Shown in pieces: positions 2,688 to 12,871 of a stretch of DNA of 64,000 bases; the first letter of the stretch is position 1; each line of letters starts with the position of its first letter. The notes under the pieces were generated by a model that was not told where the DNA came from, did not search any database, and saw nothing but the letters and a program-made list of their open reading frames with translations. Origin of the DNA: Lysobacter niastensis (lineage in GTDB: Bacteria > Pseudomonadota > Gammaproteobacteria > Xanthomonadales > Xanthomonadaceae); contig NZ_JADLZT010000009.1 in assembly GCF_015453285.1 (NCBI RefSeq), positions 62,001-126,000 of the forward strand. The letters are read 5' to 3'. The position numbers and the translations under genes were made by a program.

Positions 2688-4209
2688 ACGTTGCGATGGG
2701 CGGTCGCATCGTCCCGGACTCTATGAAGCGCTGGTGCCACGACAGTGCCTCGCCCAGCAGGTGCGGTGTGTGTTTGCCATAGCTTTCCCGGCATGCGCGA
2801 TCGAAGTAGTCCTGAAGCGCAGGGCGGTACGCGGGATGCGAACACGACGCGATGATGCTCCGGGCTCGCTGCTTCGGTGACAGGCCCCGCAGGTCGGCAA
2901 GCCCCTGCTCCGTCACAACCACCATGACGTCGTGTTCGGTGTGATCCACATGGCTTGCCATGGGGACGATGGTCGAGATGGCGCCGTCCTTTGCGGTACT
3001 CGGAGCCATGAACACCGACAGGTAGGCGTTGCGTGCGAAGTCGCCGCTGCCACCGATTCCGTTCATGATGCGGCTGCCGGCCACGTGCGTGGAGTTGACG
3101 TTGCCGTAGATGTCGGCCTCGATCATGCCGTTCATCGCGATGCAGCCCAACCGCCGGATTAGCTCGGGATGATTGGATATCTCCTGCGGGCGCAGCACGA
3201 TCCGCTCGCGGTAGTACTCGACGCGGGACAGGAACTCGCTGAGGCCGGAGGGGCTCAGCGCGAATGAAGTCGCCGATGCCATCCGCAGCACGCCGGTCCC
3301 GATCAGGTTCAGCATCGCGTCCTGTATGACCTCGGTGTACGCGGTCAGGTCCCGGTAGCCGGACCCGCCCAGGCCGTCGAGCACGGCATTGGCGATGTTG
3401 CCCACGCCGGACTGCAACGGCAGCAGGTTCTTCGCAAGACGCCCGCGTCTGACCTCGTGCGCCAGGAACTCCAGCAGGTGTCCGGCGATCTGCTTCGATT
3501 CTGCGTCCGGCGCCGCGAAGGGCGAGTTCCGGTCCGGGGCATCGACCTCGACCACCGCGATCACTTTGGCGGGATCACATCGAAGGTAGGGCTCGCCGAT
3601 TCGATCATCCGGATGGAGCAGCGGGATCGGCTTTCGATTCGGCGGCAATGCGGTGCCGTAGTAGACATCGTGCATGCCCTTCAGTTCGGCGGGCTGCCAT
3701 CGATTGACCTCGAGGATGACCTGCCCAGCCTGCTCGAGCCAGGTCTTGTTGTTGCCGATCGACGAGGAAGGCACAAGGCGGCCCTCCTCGTCGATATCGG
3801 TCACCTCGACTACCGCGATATCGATGTTCCCGAAATACCCGAACCATGTGTGCTGGGCGACATGGCTGAGGTGCATGTCGATGTATTCAAGCTCGCCCTC
3901 GTTGATCCGGGCTCGCAGCGTGGGATCGGACTGGTATGGCAATCGAAGCTCGATTCCGCGCGCACGCGCGAGCTCGCCATCGAGCTCTGGCGCGGTGGAA
4001 GCGCCGGTGAGGACGCGGATGCGGAACTCGTCGCCCGAGTCATTGGCCTGCTGGATGCGCGCAGCGAGCGCCTTCGGCACGGCTTTCGGGTAGCCGGCGC
4101 CCGTGAACCCGCTCATGGCCACGGTCATGCCAGGGCGGATCAACGCGGCGGCCTCTTCTGCCGACATGCGCTTCTCGCGCAGCGCTTCGTTGCGGATACG
4201 CTCGCTCAT
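2686..4209 (-). CDS. Acetyl-CoA hydrolase/transferase family protein (probable succinate:acyl-CoA CoA-transferase)
   Basis: This 507-residue protein matches the AarC/Cat1/ScpC-type family, which moves CoA between short acids such as succinate and acetate or propionate. Family hallmarks are the N-terminal GFTGAGYPKAVP segment, the TAYTEVIQDAM segment containing the Glu that forms the glutamyl-CoA intermediate, and GNVNSTHVAGSRIMNGIGG near the C terminus. A good GAGG ribosome site lies six bases before the start. The zinc alcohol dehydrogenase is 47 bp upstream on the same strand, so co-transcription is plausible. Hydrolase and transferase cannot be separated by sequence alone, but the length and motifs favour a transferase. 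Confidence 0.88.
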   Translation of the reverse strand: MSERIRNEALREKRMSAEEAAALIRPGMTVAMSGFTGAGYPKAVPKALAARIQQANDSGDEFRIRVLTGASTAPELDGELARARGIELRLPYQSDPTLRARINEGELEYIDMHLSHVAQHTWFGYFGNIDIAVVEVTDIDEEGRLVPSSSIGNNKTWLEQAGQVILEVNRWQPAELKGMHDVYYGTALPPNRKPIPLLHPDDRIGEPYLRCDPAKVIAVVEVDAPDRNSPFAAPDAESKQIAGHLLEFLAHEVRRGRLAKNLLPLQSGVGNIANAVLDGLGGSGYRDLTAYTEVIQDAMLNLIGTGVLRMASATSFALSPSGLSEFLSRVEYYRERIVLRPQEISNHPELIRRLGCIAMNGMIEADIYGNVNSTHVAGSRIMNGIGGSGDFARNAYLSVFMAPSTAKDGAISTIVPMASHVDHTEHDVMVVVTEQGLADLRGLSPKQRARSIIASCSHPAYRPALQDYFDRACRESYGKHTPHLLGEALSWHQRFIESGTMRPPIAT

Positions 4210-4256
4210 GCGCGCCTCATTTTTACCTGGCTTCTTCGCGTATTTCCGCGACCGGC

Positions 4257-5285
4257 CTAGGCCGCCATGTCGAGGACGATGCGGCCTTCGATCTCGCCTT
4301 TGCGCATGCGGTCGAAGATGTCGTTGATGTTCTCCAGCTTGTCGGCGGCAACGGTCGCGGCGACCTTGCCCTGAGCGGCGAACTCCAGCGATTCCTGCAA
4401 GTCCAGACGGGTACCGACGATCGAGCCGCGCACCGTTATGCCGTTGAGCACCATGCCGAAGATGTCCAGCGGGAAGCTGCCCGGCGGCAGGCCCACCAGC
4501 GACATCGTGCCGCGACGCCGCAACATTCCCAGCGCCTGCTCGAAGGCTTTCGGCGACACCGCGGTGACCAGCGCGCCATGCGCACCGCCGATCTCCTGCT
4601 TCAGGAACTGGGCTGGATCGGTGTTGAGTGCATTGACCGTGACGGTGGCGCCCAGGCGCCGCGCCAGGTCGAGCTTGTCGTCATCCACGTCCACCGCGGC
4701 CACGTTCAGCCCCATCGCCTTCGCATACTGCACCGCCATGTGGCCCAGGCCGCCAATGCCGGAGATGACCACCCAGTCGCCGGGGCGGGTGTCGGTCATC
4801 TTCAGGCCTTTATAGACAGTGACGCCGGCGCACAGCACCGGCGCGATCTCGACAAAACCAATGTCCTTCGGCAGGTGGCCAACGTAGCCGGCGTTGGCTA
4901 ACACGTACTGCGCAAAGCCGCCGTTGACCGAATAGCCGGTGTTGCGCTGTTGCTCGCACAACGTCTCCCAGCCCCCCAGGCAGTGTTCGCAGAAACCACA
5001 GGCCGAATACAGCCACGGAATGCCGACGCGGTCGCCTTCCTTGACGTGGCTGACGTTGGTGCCGACGGCGACCACGTGGCCCACGCCCTCGTGGCCGGGG
5101 ATGAAAGGCGGCGACGGCTTCACCGGCCAGTCGCCCTCGGCCGCGTGCAGGTCGGTGTGGCACACGCCGCAGGCCTCGATCTTCACCAATACGTCGCCGG
5201 GTCCGGGCCGCGGCACGGGAACTTCCTCGATCGCCAGAGGCTGGCCGAACGCACGCACCACCGCGGCCTTCATGGTTCTGTCCAT
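4257..5285 (-). CDS. adhP: Zinc-dependent alcohol dehydrogenase, AdhP type
   Basis: This is a 342-residue medium-chain dehydrogenase that oxidises primary alcohols such as ethanol to aldehydes with NAD. Catalytic zinc ligands are in CGVCHTD and GHEGVGHV; the structural-zinc lobe CGFCEHC...C is intact; the Rossmann motif is GIGGLGH. All are where the AdhP/ADH1 class has them. GGAG eight bases upstream supports the first Met; a second Met four residues later is a weaker alternative. It precedes the CoA-transferase gene on the same strand, which suggests alcohol or short-acid metabolism, but no aldehyde dehydrogenase is next to them. Confidence 0.9.
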
Positions 5286-5775: not shown

Positions 5776-6063
5776 CGACATCTCCTGATTCCAGTGACTG
5801 CCGCTGACGCCCTTCGGGAGAGCAGCGGGTGCTGTCCCCGTATATCCATCGCTGCGTTAACGCCGCGTCGGAATCACGGGTGGTGGGTCGGTTACAGAAG
5901 GTCGGCTGCGTAGTGCGGCCAATGGATTGCTCATCCATGCCAGGCGGTATCGCATTGCCAGCGGGCGTCATGACACTAGCCGTTGTAGGTGATGAGCACC
6001 GTTCCCGGATCGCCGTCAGTGGTACGCGGTTGCCCCGCGCGTGTTCGGGATTGATTCGACCCG
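5776..6063. other. Intergenic region between divergent genes
   Basis: About 290 bp separates the small exported protein from the ars operon. Promoters for both must lie here, but apart from the ArsR-type operator at its right edge I see no clear element or further gene. Confidence 0.4.
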
Positions 6064-6087
6064 ATATTTCTGCAATATTGGAAATAT
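6064..6087 (+). promoter_or_regulatory. Probable ArsR operator overlapping the arsR start
   Basis: An inverted repeat ATATTTC-N10-GAAATAT sits immediately before arsR, with a nested 8-bp palindrome (CAATATTG) between the arms. It is an AT-rich island in GC-rich DNA, and the right arm runs into the arsR ATG. ArsR/SmtB repressors bind AT-rich imperfect palindromes at their own promoters, so autoregulation is the likely role. Confidence 0.65.
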
Positions 6088-6418
6088 GGAAACGAAAGCC
6101 GCAATCGACGCCTTGAGCGCCTTGAGCCATGAATCCCGACTGGGCGCGTTCCGGCACCTGGTGCAGGCCGGTCCCGACGGACTGGCGGTCGGCGAACTCC
6201 GCGAGCGCCTCGATATCCCGCCGGCGACGTTGACCGCGCACCTCAACGTGTTGCGCGCCGCCGACCTCGTGCACGACCAGCGAGAGGGCCGCGTGATCCG
6301 CGTGCGCGCCAACTACGCGCAAATGAATGCCCTGCTCTCCTACCTGACCGAGAACTGCTGCGAGGGGGCGTCGTGCGACGTCGCTGCCGCATGCACGCCG
6401 CGCAAAGCGGCGTCCTGA
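6086..6418 (+). CDS. arsR: ArsR-family metalloid-responsive repressor
   Basis: This is a winged-helix repressor of about 110 residues, expected to release the ars operator when arsenite or antimonite binds. The DNA-recognition helix is LDIPPATLTAHLNVL. The classic CxCxxC site of the plasmid ArsR is absent; a C-terminal cluster ENCCEGASCDVAAAC offers Cys ligands instead, as in the Acidithiobacillus/Corynebacterium type of ArsR. The start is chosen at METKAAID because an operator lies directly upstream and homologues begin there; the ribosome site is weak. It heads a compact operon with arsC and an aquaporin. Confidence 0.88.
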   Translation: METKAAIDALSALSHESRLGAFRHLVQAGPDGLAVGELRERLDIPPATLTAHLNVLRAADLVHDQREGRVIRVRANYAQMNALLSYLTENCCEGASCDVAAACTPRKAAS

Positions 6419-6446
6419 AGATAAGCAATCACCATCCGGGATGACG

Positions 6447-6830
6447 ATGAAACGTGTTCTTTTTGTCTGCGTGGAGAACTCCAACCGCAGCCAGATGGCG
6501 GAGGCCTTCGCGCGCATGCACGGTGGCGATGCCATCGAGTCGCTCAGCGCCGGTTCGCGGCCATCGGGCCGGATCAACTCCAAGGCGATCCGATTCATGT
6601 CGGAACTGGGATACGACCTGACCACGCACAGTTCGAAGTCGCTCGACCAGGTCGACGGCGAGTTCGATGCCGTGATCACGATGGGCTGCGGCGACAACTG
6701 TCCGTGGGTGCCCGCGAAGCGCCGCGAGGATTGGGCCCTGCCCGACCCCCGCGACATGGACGACGATGGCTATCGCGCAGTGCGCGACGAGATCTCGTCG
6801 CGGGTGCAAGCGTTGCTGGCGACGCTGTGA
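6447..6830 (+). CDS. arsC: Arsenate reductase, low-molecular-weight phosphatase type
   Basis: This protein of about 127 residues is expected to reduce arsenate to arsenite. It has the phosphatase P-loop CVENSNR (nucleophile Cys8, Arg14), two more cysteines in MGCGDNCPW (Cys81 and Cys85) that could serve as the redox shuttle of thioredoxin-coupled ArsC, and the acid loop DWALPDP. An ordinary tyrosine phosphatase would lack the extra Cys pair. GGGA five bases upstream favours this ATG over one two codons earlier at 6441. It lies between arsR and the aquaporin gene, whose start overlaps its stop codon, so the two are probably translationally coupled. Confidence 0.85.
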   Translation: MKRVLFVCVENSNRSQMAEAFARMHGGDAIESLSAGSRPSGRINSKAIRFMSELGYDLTTHSSKSLDQVDGEFDAVITMGCGDNCPWVPAKRREDWALPDPRDMDDDGYRAVRDEISSRVQALLATL

Positions 6831-7537
6831 TGCCGTTGGCGCGCCGGCTGCTTGCCGAATTCGTGGGCACGGCCCTGCTGCTGGCCACGGTGGTCGGCTC
6901 GGGAATCATGGGCGTCGCGCTGTCGGGCGGCAATGACGGCATCGCGTTGCTGGCCAATGCCGCCGCGACCGCCGGTGCGCTGTACGTGCTGATCGTGTTG
7001 TTCGGGCCCGTCTCTGGTGCGCATTTCAATCCCGTCGTGACGCTGGCGATGCGCATGCGTGGCGAGATCGGCAAGCGCGAAGCCATCGCCTATGTCGTGG
7101 TCCAGGCAGTGGCTGCGATCGCGGGCGTGTTGCTGGCGCACGGGATGTTCGACCTGCCGCTGCTGCAGCCGGGCACGCACGCGCGCACCGGCATGGCGCA
7201 ATGGCTCAGTGAGGCCGTCGCCACGTTCGGACTGCTGCTGACGATCCTGCTGGGAATGCGCCATCGCCCGGCGGCGGTGCCGGCACTGGTAGCCGCGTAC
7301 ATCTTCGCCGCGTACTGGTTCACCGCCAGCACATCGTTCGCCAATCCCGCAGTCACGCTGGCCCGCTCGCTGACGCAGACCTTCGCCGGCATACGGCCTG
7401 TCGACGTGCCGGGTTTCGTGCTGGCGCAAGTGCTCGGCATGCTGGCCGGATACGCGATCGCCACGCTGCTCGCGCCGGATGCACGCACGCAACCGGGCGA
7501 GGAACCGCCTGCAGTGTCAGCGAAGGATCCTGCCTAG
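6830..7537 (+). CDS. MIP-family channel in the ars operon (AqpS-like)
   Basis: This 235-residue aquaporin/glyceroporin has about six membrane helices and the two half-helix boxes: NPV (67-69, in GAHFNPVVT) and NPA (172-174, in FANPAVTLAR). The first box is altered from NPA to NPV. The ATG overlaps the arsC stop by one base. An aquaglyceroporin in an ars operon is known from Sinorhizobium meliloti (AqpS), where it replaces a pump and lets arsenite leave down its gradient. No arsB or acr3 gene is present here, which supports the same role. The C-terminal 25 residues are polar and unconserved-looking. Confidence 0.85.
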   Translation: MPLARRLLAEFVGTALLLATVVGSGIMGVALSGGNDGIALLANAAATAGALYVLIVLFGPVSGAHFNPVVTLAMRMRGEIGKREAIAYVVVQAVAAIAGVLLAHGMFDLPLLQPGTHARTGMAQWLSEAVATFGLLLTILLGMRHRPAAVPALVAAYIFAAYWFTASTSFANPAVTLARSLTQTFAGIRPVDVPGFVLAQVLGMLAGYAIATLLAPDARTQPGEEPPAVSAKDPA

Positions 7538-8574: not shown

Positions 8575-9915
8575 TCAGAACGAGATCGGGACGCGCGCCG
8601 TCAGGGTCAGGTCCGGCGTATCGCGAGTCAGGCCGGCGCCCACCGCTACGTTGAGCGACACCTTGTCGTTGAAGCGGTAGGTGCCGCCGAGCAACAACGT
8701 GCCAAGCGTGAGCCGCACGGCGCCTGGTGCGTCCTGCCCGTTCTGTTCGGCCGGCGCGATGACACTCTGGTCGTAGCCGATGCTGATCGATGCCTTCTCG
8801 TTGAGCGCCAGGCCAAGGCCGAGATTGATTCCCCAGATGTCGCCCGCCTTCACGTCGCCGATCGATTCCTTCACCCCGTCGACCAGTGTCCGCGTGACGT
8901 TGTCGCGTTCGAAGTTGTAGAGATAGCTGAAGCTGCCGAAGAACACGACCGGGTCGGACGGATACAGCCAGGTCACGCCGGTCTGCATCGATTCGAAACC
9001 GGTACCGGTCGGCAGTTCCACAGGAAGTCCGGTGCCGGTCGTGTTGGCGACGCAGCGCGTGATGCAGTCGGTGACGACCTCGAACAGGTCCTTGCCGGTG
9101 CGGCTCTTGTAGCGCAGCCAGCCGATGTAGAACGCCTTGTCAGGGCCGCCGCGGTTGATCTGGTAACGGGCCGTTGCCTCGACGTCGCCCAGGCCATGCC
9201 CGTCGGCGGTGAATACGTTGTCGACCGCGGTGCCGGTGAAGATCTCGCGGCTGACGGTATCGCCGTTGAGATAAACGTACGGCACCTTCGCTTCGAGTTC
9301 GAAGCGGTTGGTGAAGCCGTAGCGGCCGGTGATCGTCGCGATGCCCGACGTGGTCTTGACCTGGCGCACGTCGATCAGGCCGATCAGCAGGGCTGGAATG
9401 ATCGTGAAGCCGACCAGCGCGACGCGGTCGTTCGACGAATAGCCGTATTGCAACGACGGTTCGAGGATGAACTTGCCTTTCGGCGTCAGCACGCCCGGCT
9501 GATCGAAGATCTGCGCGACTTCAGGGGGACGCGAGGCTTCCACCGGCGCTTGGCCGACGGGTTGCGGCTTGTCCTGCTGCGCGATGTTGCGTACCACCGC
9601 GGGCGAGCCCTGCTGGCCCACCGCAGGCACCACCGCGACGGGGGCCGCGCCCGCGCCACGCTCGGCATCCAGGCGCTCATCGTTCAGTGCCTGCTGCAGC
9701 TGCTGCACGCTCTGTTCCTGCTGCGCCAGCGCCTGGCGCAGCTCCTCGAGGCGCCGCGTCTGTGCGTTGATCTCGCGCTGCATGGCATCGAGCCGGTCGC
9801 CGCTGGCCGAAGGCGGCGGTGGCGAGGACGGCTCCTGCGCGTGGACCACCCCGGCCGTGGCGAGCCACAGGCAGGAAACCAGAGTCAGGGGACGAGTCAT
9901 CGGCGAGGTCTTCAT
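8575..9915 (-). CDS. FapF-like outer-membrane channel (coiled coil plus beta-barrel)
   Basis: This 446-residue protein has a Sec signal peptide (1-26, ending VVHA), a Pro-rich linker, a heptad-rich coiled coil at about 40-85 (DRLDAMQREINAQ...LEELRQALAQQEQ), a disordered linker, then a long beta-barrel domain from about 140 ending in Phe, the usual outer-membrane insertion signal. Barrel motifs include FILEPSLQYGYSSND and ARVPISF. This order is that of Pseudomonas FapF, the trimeric pore that secretes Fap amyloid subunits through a coiled-coil gate. The barrel also resembles the broad phenol-MetA-type family. It is the last gene of the five-gene operon. A channel for the Gly-rich protein is inferred. 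Confidence 0.75.
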   Translation of the reverse strand: MKTSPMTRPLTLVSCLWLATAGVVHAQEPSSPPPPSASGDRLDAMQREINAQTRRLEELRQALAQQEQSVQQLQQALNDERLDAERGAGAAPVAVVPAVGQQGSPAVVRNIAQQDKPQPVGQAPVEASRPPEVAQIFDQPGVLTPKGKFILEPSLQYGYSSNDRVALVGFTIIPALLIGLIDVRQVKTTSGIATITGRYGFTNRFELEAKVPYVYLNGDTVSREIFTGTAVDNVFTADGHGLGDVEATARYQINRGGPDKAFYIGWLRYKSRTGKDLFEVVTDCITRCVANTTGTGLPVELPTGTGFESMQTGVTWLYPSDPVVFFGSFSYLYNFERDNVTRTLVDGVKESIGDVKAGDIWGINLGLGLALNEKASISIGYDQSVIAPAEQNGQDAPGAVRLTLGTLLLGGTYRFNDKVSLNVAVGAGLTRDTPDLTLTARVPISF

Positions 9916-9954
9916 GCGATGTCCTTCGTGAAGAGAACGCGCTGCGATTCGGAT

Positions 9955-10461
9955 TCAGGGTAGCCGCGTGGCGGTGACGATGGCGTCGCGCATCGCCGCC
10001 TGTGCGCTCATCTCCTGGAAGAGGCCGAGCGTATCGACCCCGATGTTCAAGGTCGTGACGGCCCGAATATCCTGACCGTCGAGGGTGTTCTGGATGACGA
10101 CGCCCTGCAGGCCGCCCGCAGGCTCGAAATGGTTGCCCGGACCGATCTGGATCAGCATGCCTTCCTTGAACCGGGCCAGTTCGGTGGCCTGCTCCGTCGT
10201 CATGCGGGCGATGTCGGGAATGTTCACGCGCGTAGTCGCGAGCAGTTCGCCGTTGACCATGACGACGCGTTCGATGCCGAAGGAAAGCGTCATGCCGGAG
10301 GGTGTGTCGAAACCGCCTCGCAGCGAATCGAGCCGCTCGGGATCGACCGGCTTCCATTCCGGCCCGAATCCGGAATCCGGAAGCTCCTGCCCTGCACCGG
10401 CCATGGGCAACATGGCGGCAGCCAGCAGCAGTACAACGGCGATCGTTCGCGGCGTGTCCAT
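9955..10461 (-). CDS. Exported protein with double-glycine motif, candidate C39 substrate or assembly factor
   Basis: This is a 168-residue protein of no recognised family. It has a Sec signal peptide (1-24, ending MAGAG), then ERLDSLRGG with the two glycines at 49-50, then a beta-rich mature region. Its C-terminal third contains VVIQNTLDGQDIRAVTTLNIGV, here described in parts: VVIQNT at 121-126 and TLNIGV at 137-142. The same pieces occur near the end of the other double-glycine protein in this operon. Hydrophobic residues at -4, -7 and -12 before the GG match the double-glycine leader pattern cut by C39 peptidases. It starts 10 bp after the peptidase stop codon. Confidence 0.72.
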   Translation of the reverse strand: MDTPRTIAVVLLLAAAMLPMAGAGQELPDSGFGPEWKPVDPERLDSLRGGFDTPSGMTLSFGIERVVMVNGELLATTRVNIPDIARMTTEQATELARFKEGMLIQIGPGNHFEPAGGLQGVVIQNTLDGQDIRAVTTLNIGVDTLGLFQEMSAQAAMRDAIVTATRLP

Positions 10462-10471
10462 GTCCGGCTGC

Positions 10472-11164
10472 TCAGATGTCGCCCGGCCTGCGCCTGGGCG
10501 TGACGATGTTGTAGAGGCTGTCGCGCGCGATGCCGACATCCAGCGGCGCCGGCGGCGCGGTGCCCCAGTCGCGCGGCTGGTTGAAGCGCGCCAGTTCGCG
10601 GCGGTTATGCACGACGAACAGCACGCGGTTGTCCCACAGCTTCTCGAACCGCGACAACGGCATGGCTCGGGTGCCACGCGCAGGATCGCCGAGCAGCACG
10701 CGTCCGTTGCGCAGTCCTTTGACCACCACGAAATGGCGATATCCGCGGTCGTTGAGCAGAACGATCGCCGGCACGCCTTCTTCCGCCAGCTTGTGCACCG
10801 GCAATTCGAAGCCGTCGGCGGCAAACCCGTGGGACTGCAGGTAGCGCCGGATGTCGAGCAGTGAAAATCCTTCGCGTCTTATCTTGGCCTGGTCGCCATT
10901 GGCGTACATCTGCGTGAAGACATCCACCTCGGAGACCGGAATCCCGTACTGGTAGGTCAGCAGCGTGGCCGTGGCCGCCGAGCCGCAACTGAAGTCGTAC
11001 TGCTGCGGCACCGTGGTGCGGAAGCGTGCCTCCTTCACGCTGACGACGCGGACGCGGTAATCGCCACCGGGCGGCACCCGCACATCCACCGTTCCCGCGT
11101 GCACGGACGCGCTGGCGAGCGCCAGCGCCACCAGCATGTGCAGGAGCCTGCGCGCGCGCGTCAT
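10472..11164 (-). CDS. Sec-exported C39-family cysteine peptidase (FapD-like)
   Basis: This 230-residue protein has a signal peptide (1-23, ending SVHA) and a peptidase C39 domain. The catalytic Cys60 is in QQYDFSCGSAATATLL, His144 in GYRHFVVVKG, and Asp160 in LLGDPARG. C39 peptidases usually sit at the N terminus of bacteriocin ABC exporters and cut double-glycine leaders in the cytoplasm; this one is free-standing and exported, as FapD is in the Pseudomonas amyloid operon. Its start overlaps the stop of the upstream double-glycine protein (ATGA). Processing of its two neighbours in the periplasm is inferred from the motif match. Confidence 0.87.
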   Translation of the reverse strand: MTRARRLLHMLVALALASASVHAGTVDVRVPPGGDYRVRVVSVKEARFRTTVPQQYDFSCGSAATATLLTYQYGIPVSEVDVFTQMYANGDQAKIRREGFSLLDIRRYLQSHGFAADGFELPVHKLAEEGVPAIVLLNDRGYRHFVVVKGLRNGRVLLGDPARGTRAMPLSRFEKLWDNRVLFVVHNRRELARFNQPRDWGTAPPAPLDVGIARDSLYNIVTPRRRPGDI

Positions 11165-11580
11165 GGCGAAGGCGGCGGTGCGAACTGCACGTTGACGATC
11201 ATCGCGTTCTGGATCAACACGTTCGCACCGGTGTTCTGGATCACCGTGGAGATGCCATTCGCGTTGGCGAACGATCCCGCATCGACATTGTTGTGGCCGG
11301 TGACGACGTGGTCGGCGGTGTTGTCCTGCACGTTGCCGTTCACCAGGATGTCGTTCTCGACGGTGTCGGCACCGCCGCGCAGCGATTCGAGTGCTTCGAG
11401 TGCGATTGGATTTCCCAGCCCTGCATCCGCGGAAACCAGCGCTCCCGACGATGCTCCTTCAGTGTCGATCCCAGGCGGCTGCAGCCATGCCGGATCACCA
11501 GGTTCGGCCGCAAACGCGACTCCCGAGGGAATCGCCAGTGCGAAGAAAAACGCGCTGAGTATTGTGTGATGAGCTCGCAT
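11161..11580 (-). CDS. Small exported double-glycine protein with Asn/Val-rich beta region
   Basis: This is a 139-residue protein of no recognised family. It has a Sec signal peptide (1-25), a linker, then ALEALESLRGG with glycines at 69-70, followed by an Asn-rich, strand-like mature part (NGNVQDNTADHVVTG, VIQNT at 113-117, VLIQNAMIVNVQF at the end). The motif before GG is nearly the same as in the other small protein (LxSLRGG in both). The C-terminal QN/IQ pattern also matches the end of the Gly-rich protein. The ATG with seven-base spacing to GGAG is chosen; one two codons earlier is too close. Likely a secreted subunit or nucleator; inferred. Confidence 0.75.
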   Translation of the reverse strand: MRAHHTILSAFFFALAIPSGVAFAAEPGDPAWLQPPGIDTEGASSGALVSADAGLGNPIALEALESLRGGADTVENDILVNGNVQDNTADHVVTGHNNVDAGSFANANGISTVIQNTGANVLIQNAMIVNVQFAPPPSP

Positions 11581-11636
11581 GGTCATGCTCCTTCGCCATG
11601 CGTTCCCGGTGCGCGTGCGGTCACCCGCGCGGAAAG

Positions 11637-11713
11637 CTCCCTGCCGGCGGAGGCTCCGGCAGGGAGTTCCAACACGCGCACGACATGCCACAGGCGAACG
11701 CCCGTGGCATGTC
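11637..11713 (-). terminator. Two strong hairpins after the Gly-rich gene
   Basis: The gap between the first and second genes of the operon holds two perfect inverted repeats. The first transcribed is GACATGCCAC/GTGGCATGTC with a nested GGCG/CGCC stem (11682-11713), starting 12 bp past the Gly-rich stop codon. The second is an 11-bp stem CTCCCTGCCGG/CCGGCAGGGAG (11637-11666). No clear U-tract follows, so partial termination or 3'-end protection of the first gene's mRNA is more likely than a full stop. Confidence 0.6.
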
Positions 11714-11725
11714 GAGGGAGCGCGT

Positions 11726-12871
11726 TTATGGGCCTACGGTCAGGTTGGCCTGCACGGTGACACCCTGCTGGATCAGGGAGGCGATGCCGCTGTTCTGCGC
11801 CGCCACCATGATGCCGGCCGCCGACTGCCCAACGCTGGTCATGCTGCTGGACATGTCGAAGGTGCCTGCGTCGTTCGCCACCGATCCACCGGATCCACCC
11901 GATCCGCCGGTGCCGTCGCCGCCATTGCCGCCGGTGCCGTCGCCGCCAGTCCCGCCGGCGCCGTCGCCACCGTTGCCACCGGTCGAGGCCAGTGTGCCGC
12001 CTGCGCCGCCGCTGGAGGCGCTATTGCCACCTGTCGCGCTGCCACCGGTCCCACCGGAACCGGAGCCGCCATCACCCGCGGTCGCGGCGACTGAGCCGCC
12101 ACTGCCTGCGGTCGACGTGCTCGCTCCTGCCGTGGCCGAGGCGGACCCCGTCGACCCCGCACCGCCAGTGCCGGACCCGGCACCGCCTGTGGAGTCGCCT
12201 TCCTCGCTTTCTGACGATGCCCCGCCTGCGCCGGCCGCTGCGCCGCCAAGCGCAACATCGGCCGCAATCGCGGCGCCGCCATCACCGGATGCATCACCGC
12301 CGTCGGCCCCCGTGCCGCCGGCACCACCGCCGGCACCACCATCGCCGCTGTCGCCGGTGCCGCCGCTGGCCAGGCCGCCGTCACCGGAGGCCGACCCGCC
12401 ATAGCCACCGCTGGCGCTGCCATCACCGCCGGCGCCGCCGTCCCCGCCACCGCCCGCACCTGCGTTGCCCGATCCACCGGACCCGGCATTGCCAGCACCG
12501 CCGGCCGCGCCATTGGCACTGCCGTTGTTGGTAGCGATGTTGCCGATGTTGGTGACGCTCAGCCCTGTCACGGATCCTTCAAGCGTGGTCGAAGCCACGA
12601 TGGAAGAATTGCTGGTGTTGAACGTTGACGTGGCTGTCGCTGTTCCGCCGTTGTTCGCGGCAGCAGCACCGTTATCGGCAGCGTTATCGCCGGTGCTGTT
12701 GTCGGAGTTGTCGCTGTTATCGGAGTTGTCGCTGTTGTCGGAATTGTCCGCGGCGGTAAAGGTGTCATCACCTTCGCCGCCATCACCGTTGGTCTGCTGT
12801 GCCCAGGCCTGGCTGCCGAACCCAAGGCCAATGAGCACTGCCGTTGTGATCAAGCTTCTACGAATGCGCAT
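11726..12871 (-). CDS. Long exported Gly/Ser/Ala/Asp-rich low-complexity protein
   Basis: This is a 381-residue protein with a signal peptide (1-24, ending SQAWA). Four parts follow: an acidic (DNS)n tract; a short beta-like block (residues about 65-115, e.g. SIVASTTLEGSVTG, VTNIGNIATNNGS); about 200 residues of GGxGG-type low-complexity sequence; and a C-terminal block with NDAGTFDMSSSMTSVG and QNSGIASLIQQGVTVQANL. The C-terminal block aligns by eye with the ends of both double-glycine proteins. An AAGGAG site fixes the start; the open frame runs 83 codons further upstream without support. As first gene and lowest-complexity product, it is the best candidate for the main secreted subunit. 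Function is inferred. Confidence 0.8.
   Translation of the reverse strand: MRIRRSLITTAVLIGLGFGSQAWAQQTNGDGGEGDDTFTAADNSDNSDNSDNSDNSDNSTGDNAADNGAAAANNGGTATATSTFNTSNSSIVASTTLEGSVTGLSVTNIGNIATNNGSANGAAGGAGNAGSGGSGNAGAGGGGDGGAGGDGSASGGYGGSASGDGGLASGGTGDSGDGGAGGGAGGTGADGGDASGDGGAAIAADVALGGAAAGAGGASSESEEGDSTGGAGSGTGGAGSTGSASATAGASTSTAGSGGSVAATAGDGGSGSGGTGGSATGGNSASSGGAGGTLASTGGNGGDGAGGTGGDGTGGNGGDGTGGSGGSGGSVANDAGTFDMSSSMTSVGQSAAGIMVAAQNSGIASLIQQGVTVQANLTVGP
12702..12749 (-). repeat. 18-bp tandem repeat encoding the Asp-Asn-Ser tract
   Basis: Two and two-thirds copies of an 18-bp unit (on the plus strand TCGGAGTTGTCGCTGTTA or G) encode six-residue NSDNSD blocks at the N terminus of the mature Gly-rich protein. 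Copies differ by single bases. Such in-frame repeats can change in number by slippage without breaking the gene. Confidence 0.75.

Follow-up and report, generated by a model that had tools for sequence, protein, structure and literature searches.

A probable sister system of the Fap pathway in Lysobacter niastensis with a glycine-rich proposed subunit and candidate protease sites

We analyzed a window of 64,000 nucleotides from Lysobacter niastensis (contig NZ_JADLZT010000009.1, positions 62,001 to 126,000 of the forward strand), in which a five-gene cassette had been predicted to resemble the Fap functional-amyloid system of Pseudomonas. The genes encode an exported glycine-rich protein, a small exported protein with a double-glycine motif, an exported C39 peptidase, a second exported double-glycine protein (hereafter FapE-like) and an outer-membrane barrel; Sec-like export signals were judged by eye. 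As the original prediction stated, the five genes lie tightly spaced on one strand at 8575-12871. All are on the minus strand, and the intervals from the glycine-rich gene to the barrel gene are 139 bp, an overlap of 4 bp, 10 bp and 39 bp (Table 1). The glycine-rich protein is laid out as a Sec-like signal, an Asn/Ser-rich stretch, a conserved N-terminal stretch, a Gly-rich tract and a conserved C-terminal module. Glycine makes up 95 of the 214 residues of the tract, the remainder being mostly A, S, T and D; its periodicity is weak, with a peak at 3 (0.24), and the tract varies in sequence and length across genomes.

Table 1. Features of the five-gene cassette, in window coordinates.
Feature	Coordinates	Strand	Remark
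Gly-rich exported protein, 381 amino acids	11726..12871	-	proposed major secreted subunit
Gly-rich tract, residues 118-331 of Gly-rich protein	11879..12520	-	
C-terminal module of Gly-rich protein, residues 334-381, single copy	11729..11872	-	profile comparison with small protein
Small exported double-glycine protein, 141 amino acids	11161..11586	-	proposed minor subunit or nucleator; predicted C39 substrate
LESLRGG motif of small protein, residues 66-72	11371..11391	-	predicted cut after second Gly
Fap-repeat-like C-terminal module of small protein, about residues 99-135	11182..11292	-	
Exported C39 peptidase, FapD-like (Gln54, Cys60, His144, Asp160)	10472..11164	-	
Second exported double-glycine protein, 168 amino acids, probable remote FapE homologue, predicted C39 substrate	9955..10461	-	
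LDSLRGG motif of FapE-like protein, residues 44-50	10312..10332	-	predicted cut after second Gly
FapF-like outer-membrane barrel, 446 amino acids, coiled coil at the N-terminus (by eye)	8575..9915	-	

The peptidase matched Pfam C39 (E = 5.9e-21), NCBIfam FapD (E = 1.7e-40) and NCBIfam FilB (E = 1.1e-34), and the NCBIfam search also returned peptidase-containing ATP-binding cassette (ABC) exporters. Cys60, His144 and Asp160 were found where they had been predicted, and these residues together with Gln54 are invariant in 41/41 homologues. The barrel matched the NCBIfam FapF model at full length (positions 21-420 of 420; E = 4.9e-44). Its residues 131-445 (315 residues) matched the solved FapF chains (5O67; E = 4.8e-25), which were its sole match among solved structures, and NCBIfam FilC matched its C-terminal part (E = 1.2e-9). 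FapF itself combines a coiled coil with a 12-strand trimeric barrel. The hidden Markov model comparison that the original prediction called for thus shows kinship of the peptidase with FapD and of the barrel with FapF. The two outcomes that it had named as fatal, a barrel of another family and genes that scatter, did not occur. For the glycine-rich, small and FapE-like proteins, no NCBIfam model was matched at E up to 1, and in Pfam one of them had a single insignificant hit. The claim that no FapA-, FapB- or FapC-type protein is present held for the model searches of window proteins, but not at the level of families, which showed remote kinship to FapE and FapB by profile. Viral contigs were considered as a source of peptidase relatives, and none was found there.

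Both double-glycine proteins carry the motif LxxxRGG behind a Sec-like N-terminus and a variable spacer. The motif was present in 41/41 small proteins and 41/41 FapE-like proteins from loci of the bacterial family of the window (family loci). We also scanned a genome collection with the small protein, which returned 505 stretches, and used the best 80 of the 505 as wider loci; there, the motif was found in 75/80 small and 78/78 FapE-like proteins, and the five deviating small proteins read SGG (three), RGA or HAG. The only invariant columns before position 84 of the small-protein alignment are M1, L66, R70, G71 and G72; those before position 56 of the FapE-like alignment (40 rows: the window and 39 of 40 relatives, with L037 dropped) are M1, L44, R48, G49 and G50. 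The segments after the motif are conserved across both alignments. The glycine-rich protein has no LxxxRGG in its first 130 residues in any of the 36 homologues read, including that of the window; two short or cut proteins (L070 and L081) were excluded from the alignment of glycine-rich proteins. In a more distant set of 14 copies from 13 loci, read by eye, the FapE-like protein keeps RGG in 14/14. A classical C39 leader has L at -7, a hydrophobic residue at -4 and GG at -2/-1. Both double-glycine proteins follow this pattern, the hydrophobic residue at -4 being present in most rows, not all. Since LxxxRGG is the C39 leader signature and occurs here in exported proteins, the small and FapE-like proteins are likely substrates of the C39 peptidase, a role that the original prediction did not propose. 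Profile comparison also links the two families (97%, E = 1.7e-10); BLAST of single sequences gave no match between them.

We compared the FapE-like family with canonical FapE, in which L/MxxxxG[K/R][Y/F] occurs in 29/29 sampled rows (28 distinct), 21 of them reading RG[K/R]. This motif lies in register with LxxxRGG of the FapE-like family. The profile alignment spans 103 columns with a score of 48.1, compared with 23.6 for the highest of 60 shuffles; with a narrower FapE set, the alignment was restricted to 34 columns around the motif. On this profile evidence, the second double-glycine protein is probably a remote homologue of FapE. In the work of Rouse et al. (PMC5557850), FapC secretion required the active Cys of FapD, whose target was unclear, and no FapE peptides came from within the first ~70 residues.

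The C-terminal modules of the glycine-rich and small proteins are related by profile comparison (91%, E = 1.1e-6), and BLAST between the two single proteins gave E = 0.03. A single module copy was present in 41/41 small proteins and in 79/79 upstream proteins of the wider loci. FapC and FapB are recognized by several N/Q-rich repeats, which neither the glycine-rich nor the small protein of the window possesses. The profile score of the small-protein module against the FapB repeat exceeded all shuffles (0/60 reached it), and the FapB model was listed by 8/41 small proteins at E up to 10, with a best value of 3.7e-4. Comparison of the small-protein family with the full canonical alignments gave probabilities of 24% for FapB, 2% for FapC and 32% for FapE and was set aside. 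At two distant loci, the slot of the glycine-rich protein is filled by a protein with four tandem N/Q-rich module copies. The four-copy repeats are joined by profile to the small-protein module (96.5%, E = 1e-9) and to the glycine-rich module (81%, E = 1.2e-5). Against the FapB repeat, none of 60 shuffles reached their score; of the three four-copy subunits, one matched the FapB model at E = 1.6e-4 and the others at 0.02-0.08. These proteins are encoded at 3869-4804 of L207 and at 3934-4863 and 7355-8344 of L209; each locus has one in the glycine-rich slot, and the second L209 gene lies downstream.

A peptidase match was found in 79/197 genomes of the family. The stronger matches fell into two identity groups, 41 at 65-100% (one per genome, window included) and 49 at 39-46%; both groups occurred together in 15 genomes, and weak matches alone in 4. 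The window genome has a single peptidase copy and no FapE-model match. We retrieved 40/40 of the other loci of the 65-100% group, 18/49 of the 39-46% group and the second locus for 9 of the 15 two-type genomes, and searched them by tblastn for cassette members (no low-complexity filtering, E up to 0.01); protein families were built from BLAST-placed open reading frames. In the 65-100% group, the small and FapE-like proteins flank the peptidase in 41/41 loci, the barrel is present in 40/41, with the remaining locus stopping at a contig end, and the glycine-rich protein in 37/41. In the four loci with no BLAST match to the glycine-rich protein, the upstream protein nonetheless carries the same module at its C-terminus. 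The arrangement is not a chance one; the cassette is kept together in 41/41 family loci, which answers the synteny check suggested with the original prediction. In the 39-46% group, small, FapE-like and glycine-rich proteins were found in 0/18 loci by tblastn, and the barrel in 18/18 at 23-30% identity. We refer to these loci as canonical-side, a status that rests on family models for one locus (L043), a FapE alignment in 11/18 and the barrel match in 18/18. L043 lists FapB, FapC, FapC, FapD, FapE and FapF, all below cut-off, after a first gene that is unmatched. Apparent small-protein matches in 14/18 canonical-side loci came from uncurated iterated profiles polluted by overlapping frames and were discarded.

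A tree of 63 peptidases showed a long branch (100/99) that divides 17 canonical-side rows from 46 rows of the present type. Its rows comprise 16 of the 41 family loci, 16 of the 80 wider loci, 14 peptidases from 13 distant loci and 17 of the 18 canonical-side peptidases, no open reading frame having been found for the last. The tree is unrooted, its canonical-side rows all come from one family, and the long branches of the distant rows leave inner placements unsure.

The wider loci, many of them betaproteobacterial, come from Lysobacter, Pseudoxanthomonas, Luteimonas, Dyella, Cupriavidus, Ralstonia, Massilia, Duganella, Variovorax, Rhodoferax, Steroidobacter and other genera. The peptidase was present in 80/80, the FapE-like protein in 78/80 and the barrel in 76/80, all gaps being loci under 7 kb. 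An upstream protein ending in the module was found in 79/80, and the 80th locus starts at a contig end; 76 of these 79 proteins contain at least 20% Gly, and that of L113 is Thr/Asn-rich with 9% Gly. The barrel is close by on the opposite strand in 18/76 loci. Opposite-strand barrels include those of L113, L122, L146, L152 and L160 and occur in betaproteobacteria such as Rhodoferax, Polaromonas, Variovorax and Ralstonia. The FapE model was matched in 2/9 searched genomes behind the wider loci. Matches to the small-protein profile occurred in 20/200 genomes of the order, 13/369 of the class and 14/398 of the phylum, with the window genome counted each time. In the distant locus L213 (2921-7370), the trio of small protein, peptidase and FapE-like protein is duplicated in tandem next to one barrel.

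The cassette shares with Fap (FapA-F, Pseudomonas) an exported C39 peptidase, a FapF-type barrel, a protein at the FapE position after the peptidase and a small module-bearing subunit before it. Unlike Fap, it has no sixth gene at the FapA place, its glycine-rich protein carries one C-terminal module in place of a multi-repeat FapC, its FapE-like protein is short, and LxxxRGG sites occur in two proteins. Its peptidase also sits on a separate branch from the sampled canonical-side FapD, and a ~40% copy coexists with it in 15 genomes. FilB and FilC match the peptidase and the C-terminal part of the barrel more weakly than the Fap models do; Fil is an Acinetobacter system labelled 'putative pilus system' in NCBIfam. 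Peptidase-containing ABC exporters of double-glycine peptides have the C39 domain and the leader signature in common with the cassette, whereas in the cassette the peptidase stands free with an export signal of its own, the substrates have Sec-like signals, and no ABC domain is present. In curli (CsgA-G), unfolded subunits leave through a dedicated outer-membrane pore, and the cassette is alike in outline. Curli is not known to include a C39 peptidase, and no Csg model was matched in the Pfam and NCBIfam scans of the cassette proteins.

The families, the synteny, the conserved motif and the related modules, as read from sequence, indicate that the cassette is probably sister to the Fap amyloid pathway of Pseudomonas, with a glycine-rich major subunit. 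It was not filed as canonical Fap because the multi-repeat FapB and FapC are missing from it. We infer the following route from Sec export to a fibre or matrix that may be amyloid in character. All five proteins would reach the periplasm via Sec. The FapD-like C39 peptidase would cut the small and FapE-like proteins after LxxxRGG, removing a short pro-region behind the Sec signal, and this cleavage may license export through the FapF-like barrel. The glycine-rich protein, having no site, would exit intact and become the major extracellular subunit, and the small protein could nucleate or anchor it via the related C-terminal module.

Several results weigh against this interpretation. The scores of the peptidase (138.7 of 330 bits for FapD) and the barrel (150.8 of 700 for FapF) fall far below the NCBIfam equivalog cut-offs; L043, on the canonical side, also falls below both, suggesting that these cut-offs are narrow. 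Structure models were of low confidence (predicted local distance difference test, pLDDT, 63.6 and 43.6). Each glycine-rich protein has one module copy (36/36), unlike the repeats of FapC. The score of the small-protein module against FapC lay within the shuffles (13/60 reached it), as did those of the glycine-rich module alone against FapB (7/60), FapC (53/60) and FapE (60/60), and the four-copy repeats did not rise above shuffles against FapC (11/60) or FapE (3/60). A FapB or FapC model was listed by 0/34 glycine-rich proteins, and the FapE model by 0/40 members of the FapE-like family. In the distant set, the small protein has RGG in only 3/14 copies and otherwise reads RGM, RGT, RGR, RGQ, RAK, RAM or SGR, and L213 has no visible upstream module protein.

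The cassette might instead be a diverged canonical fap operon, in which the glycine-rich protein corresponds to FapC bearing a lengthened linker, the small protein to FapB and the rest to FapD, FapE and FapF, fapA having been lost. The gene order resembles fap(BC)DEF, and the likeness of the small protein to FapB (model listed by 8/41 at E up to 10; module score reached by 0/60 shuffles) points the same way. Moreover, fapA is missing in 6/16 genera with known fap operons (PMC3792158), and the length of the FapC linker is highly variable (PMC12392863). Nevertheless, we regard this as unlikely. Both types occur in 15 genomes, and therefore the present type is not merely the local fap operon. The canonical-side peptidases are split off by the long branch (100/99; 17 versus 46 rows), the window has no multi-repeat FapC, the three accessory proteins were found by tblastn in 0/18 canonical-side loci, and 2/9 searched genomes of the present type have a FapE-model match.

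Two further explanations fit the data less well. A bacteriocin or signalling-peptide system, with the C39 enzyme maturing small double-glycine peptides released via the barrel, would agree with the LxxxRGG spacing, which is that of the C39 leader consensus, and with the peptidase matches to ABC exporters. It is very improbable, given that every part has a Sec-like signal, that no ABC exporter was found among eight scanned neighbours, that the segments after the motif are conserved, and that a module protein lies upstream in 41/41 family and 79/80 wider loci (the other is cut by a contig start). Weak, sub-threshold Pfam matches of the barrel to Phenol_MetA_deg and autotransporter barrels would allow an uptake channel of the Phenol_MetA_deg (COG4313-like) type among unrelated surface proteins. 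This is scarcely credible against the full-length FapF match, the lack of any other solved-structure match, and the persistent closeness of the barrel to the trio, including the 18/76 loci where it lies on the opposite strand. A bolder reading is possible but doubtful: Fap-type secretion may have been co-opted for another class of fibre, made of a Gly-rich protein, silk-like or polyglycine-helix, non-amyloid along its length, that one amyloid-like C-terminal module joins to a nucleator with a related module. FapD-type enzymes in general would be periplasmic maturases sharing the code L-x-x-x-R-G-[G/K/R]-[F/Y] in FapE-type proteins.

The surroundings of the cassette were also inspected. The same-strand genes upstream are rarA/mgsA, lolA and ftsK; downstream are a DUF4136 protein, dodecin and a cluster of arsR, a low-molecular-weight phosphatase and a major intrinsic protein (MIP) channel. 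The latter three stand in a row at 6041-7537 of the window and resemble an arsenic cluster with an aquaglyceroporin, in which the phosphatase is presumably arsC-like. The statement that no ABC exporter or membrane-fusion gene is nearby was borne out by a Pfam scan of eight neighbouring proteins. No sixth gene lies between the glycine-rich gene and rarA/mgsA, and, as the protein at the FapA place of L043 is also unmatched, a FapA encoded elsewhere would escape the models. Scans for promoters and terminators gave no signal exceeding shuffles.

Peptidase-barrel pairs outside fap are already known, and FapE as a FapD substrate is an existing hypothesis. Dueholm and colleagues (PMC3792158) regard FapD and FapF as likely members of larger families, a 2018 review (PMC6173800) describes fapD-fapF pairs in five further phyla and the FapD substrate as 'yet to be determined', and a 2025 review (PMC12822426) names FapE and FapF as the proteins that FapD 'is thought to' process. 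In the open literature searched, supplements aside, we recognized no description of the cassette, the motif or the glycine-rich subunit. A GTDB-wide survey with Fap models counted no more than three genomes carrying two fap clusters (PMC12392863), whereas 15/197 genomes of the family here have the present type plus a second FapD-like copy; thus, a common branch of the family seems to have escaped the survey models. The cassette is probably a sister system of Fap that works alike; its major subunit would be of a new type, and it offers candidate protease sites. The candidate cut site, kept in dozens of genomes and matching the motif of sampled canonical FapE, would make the question of the FapD substrate testable by point mutation. 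Should the glycine-rich protein form a fibre, an amyloid-type machine would here be exporting a material of a new kind.

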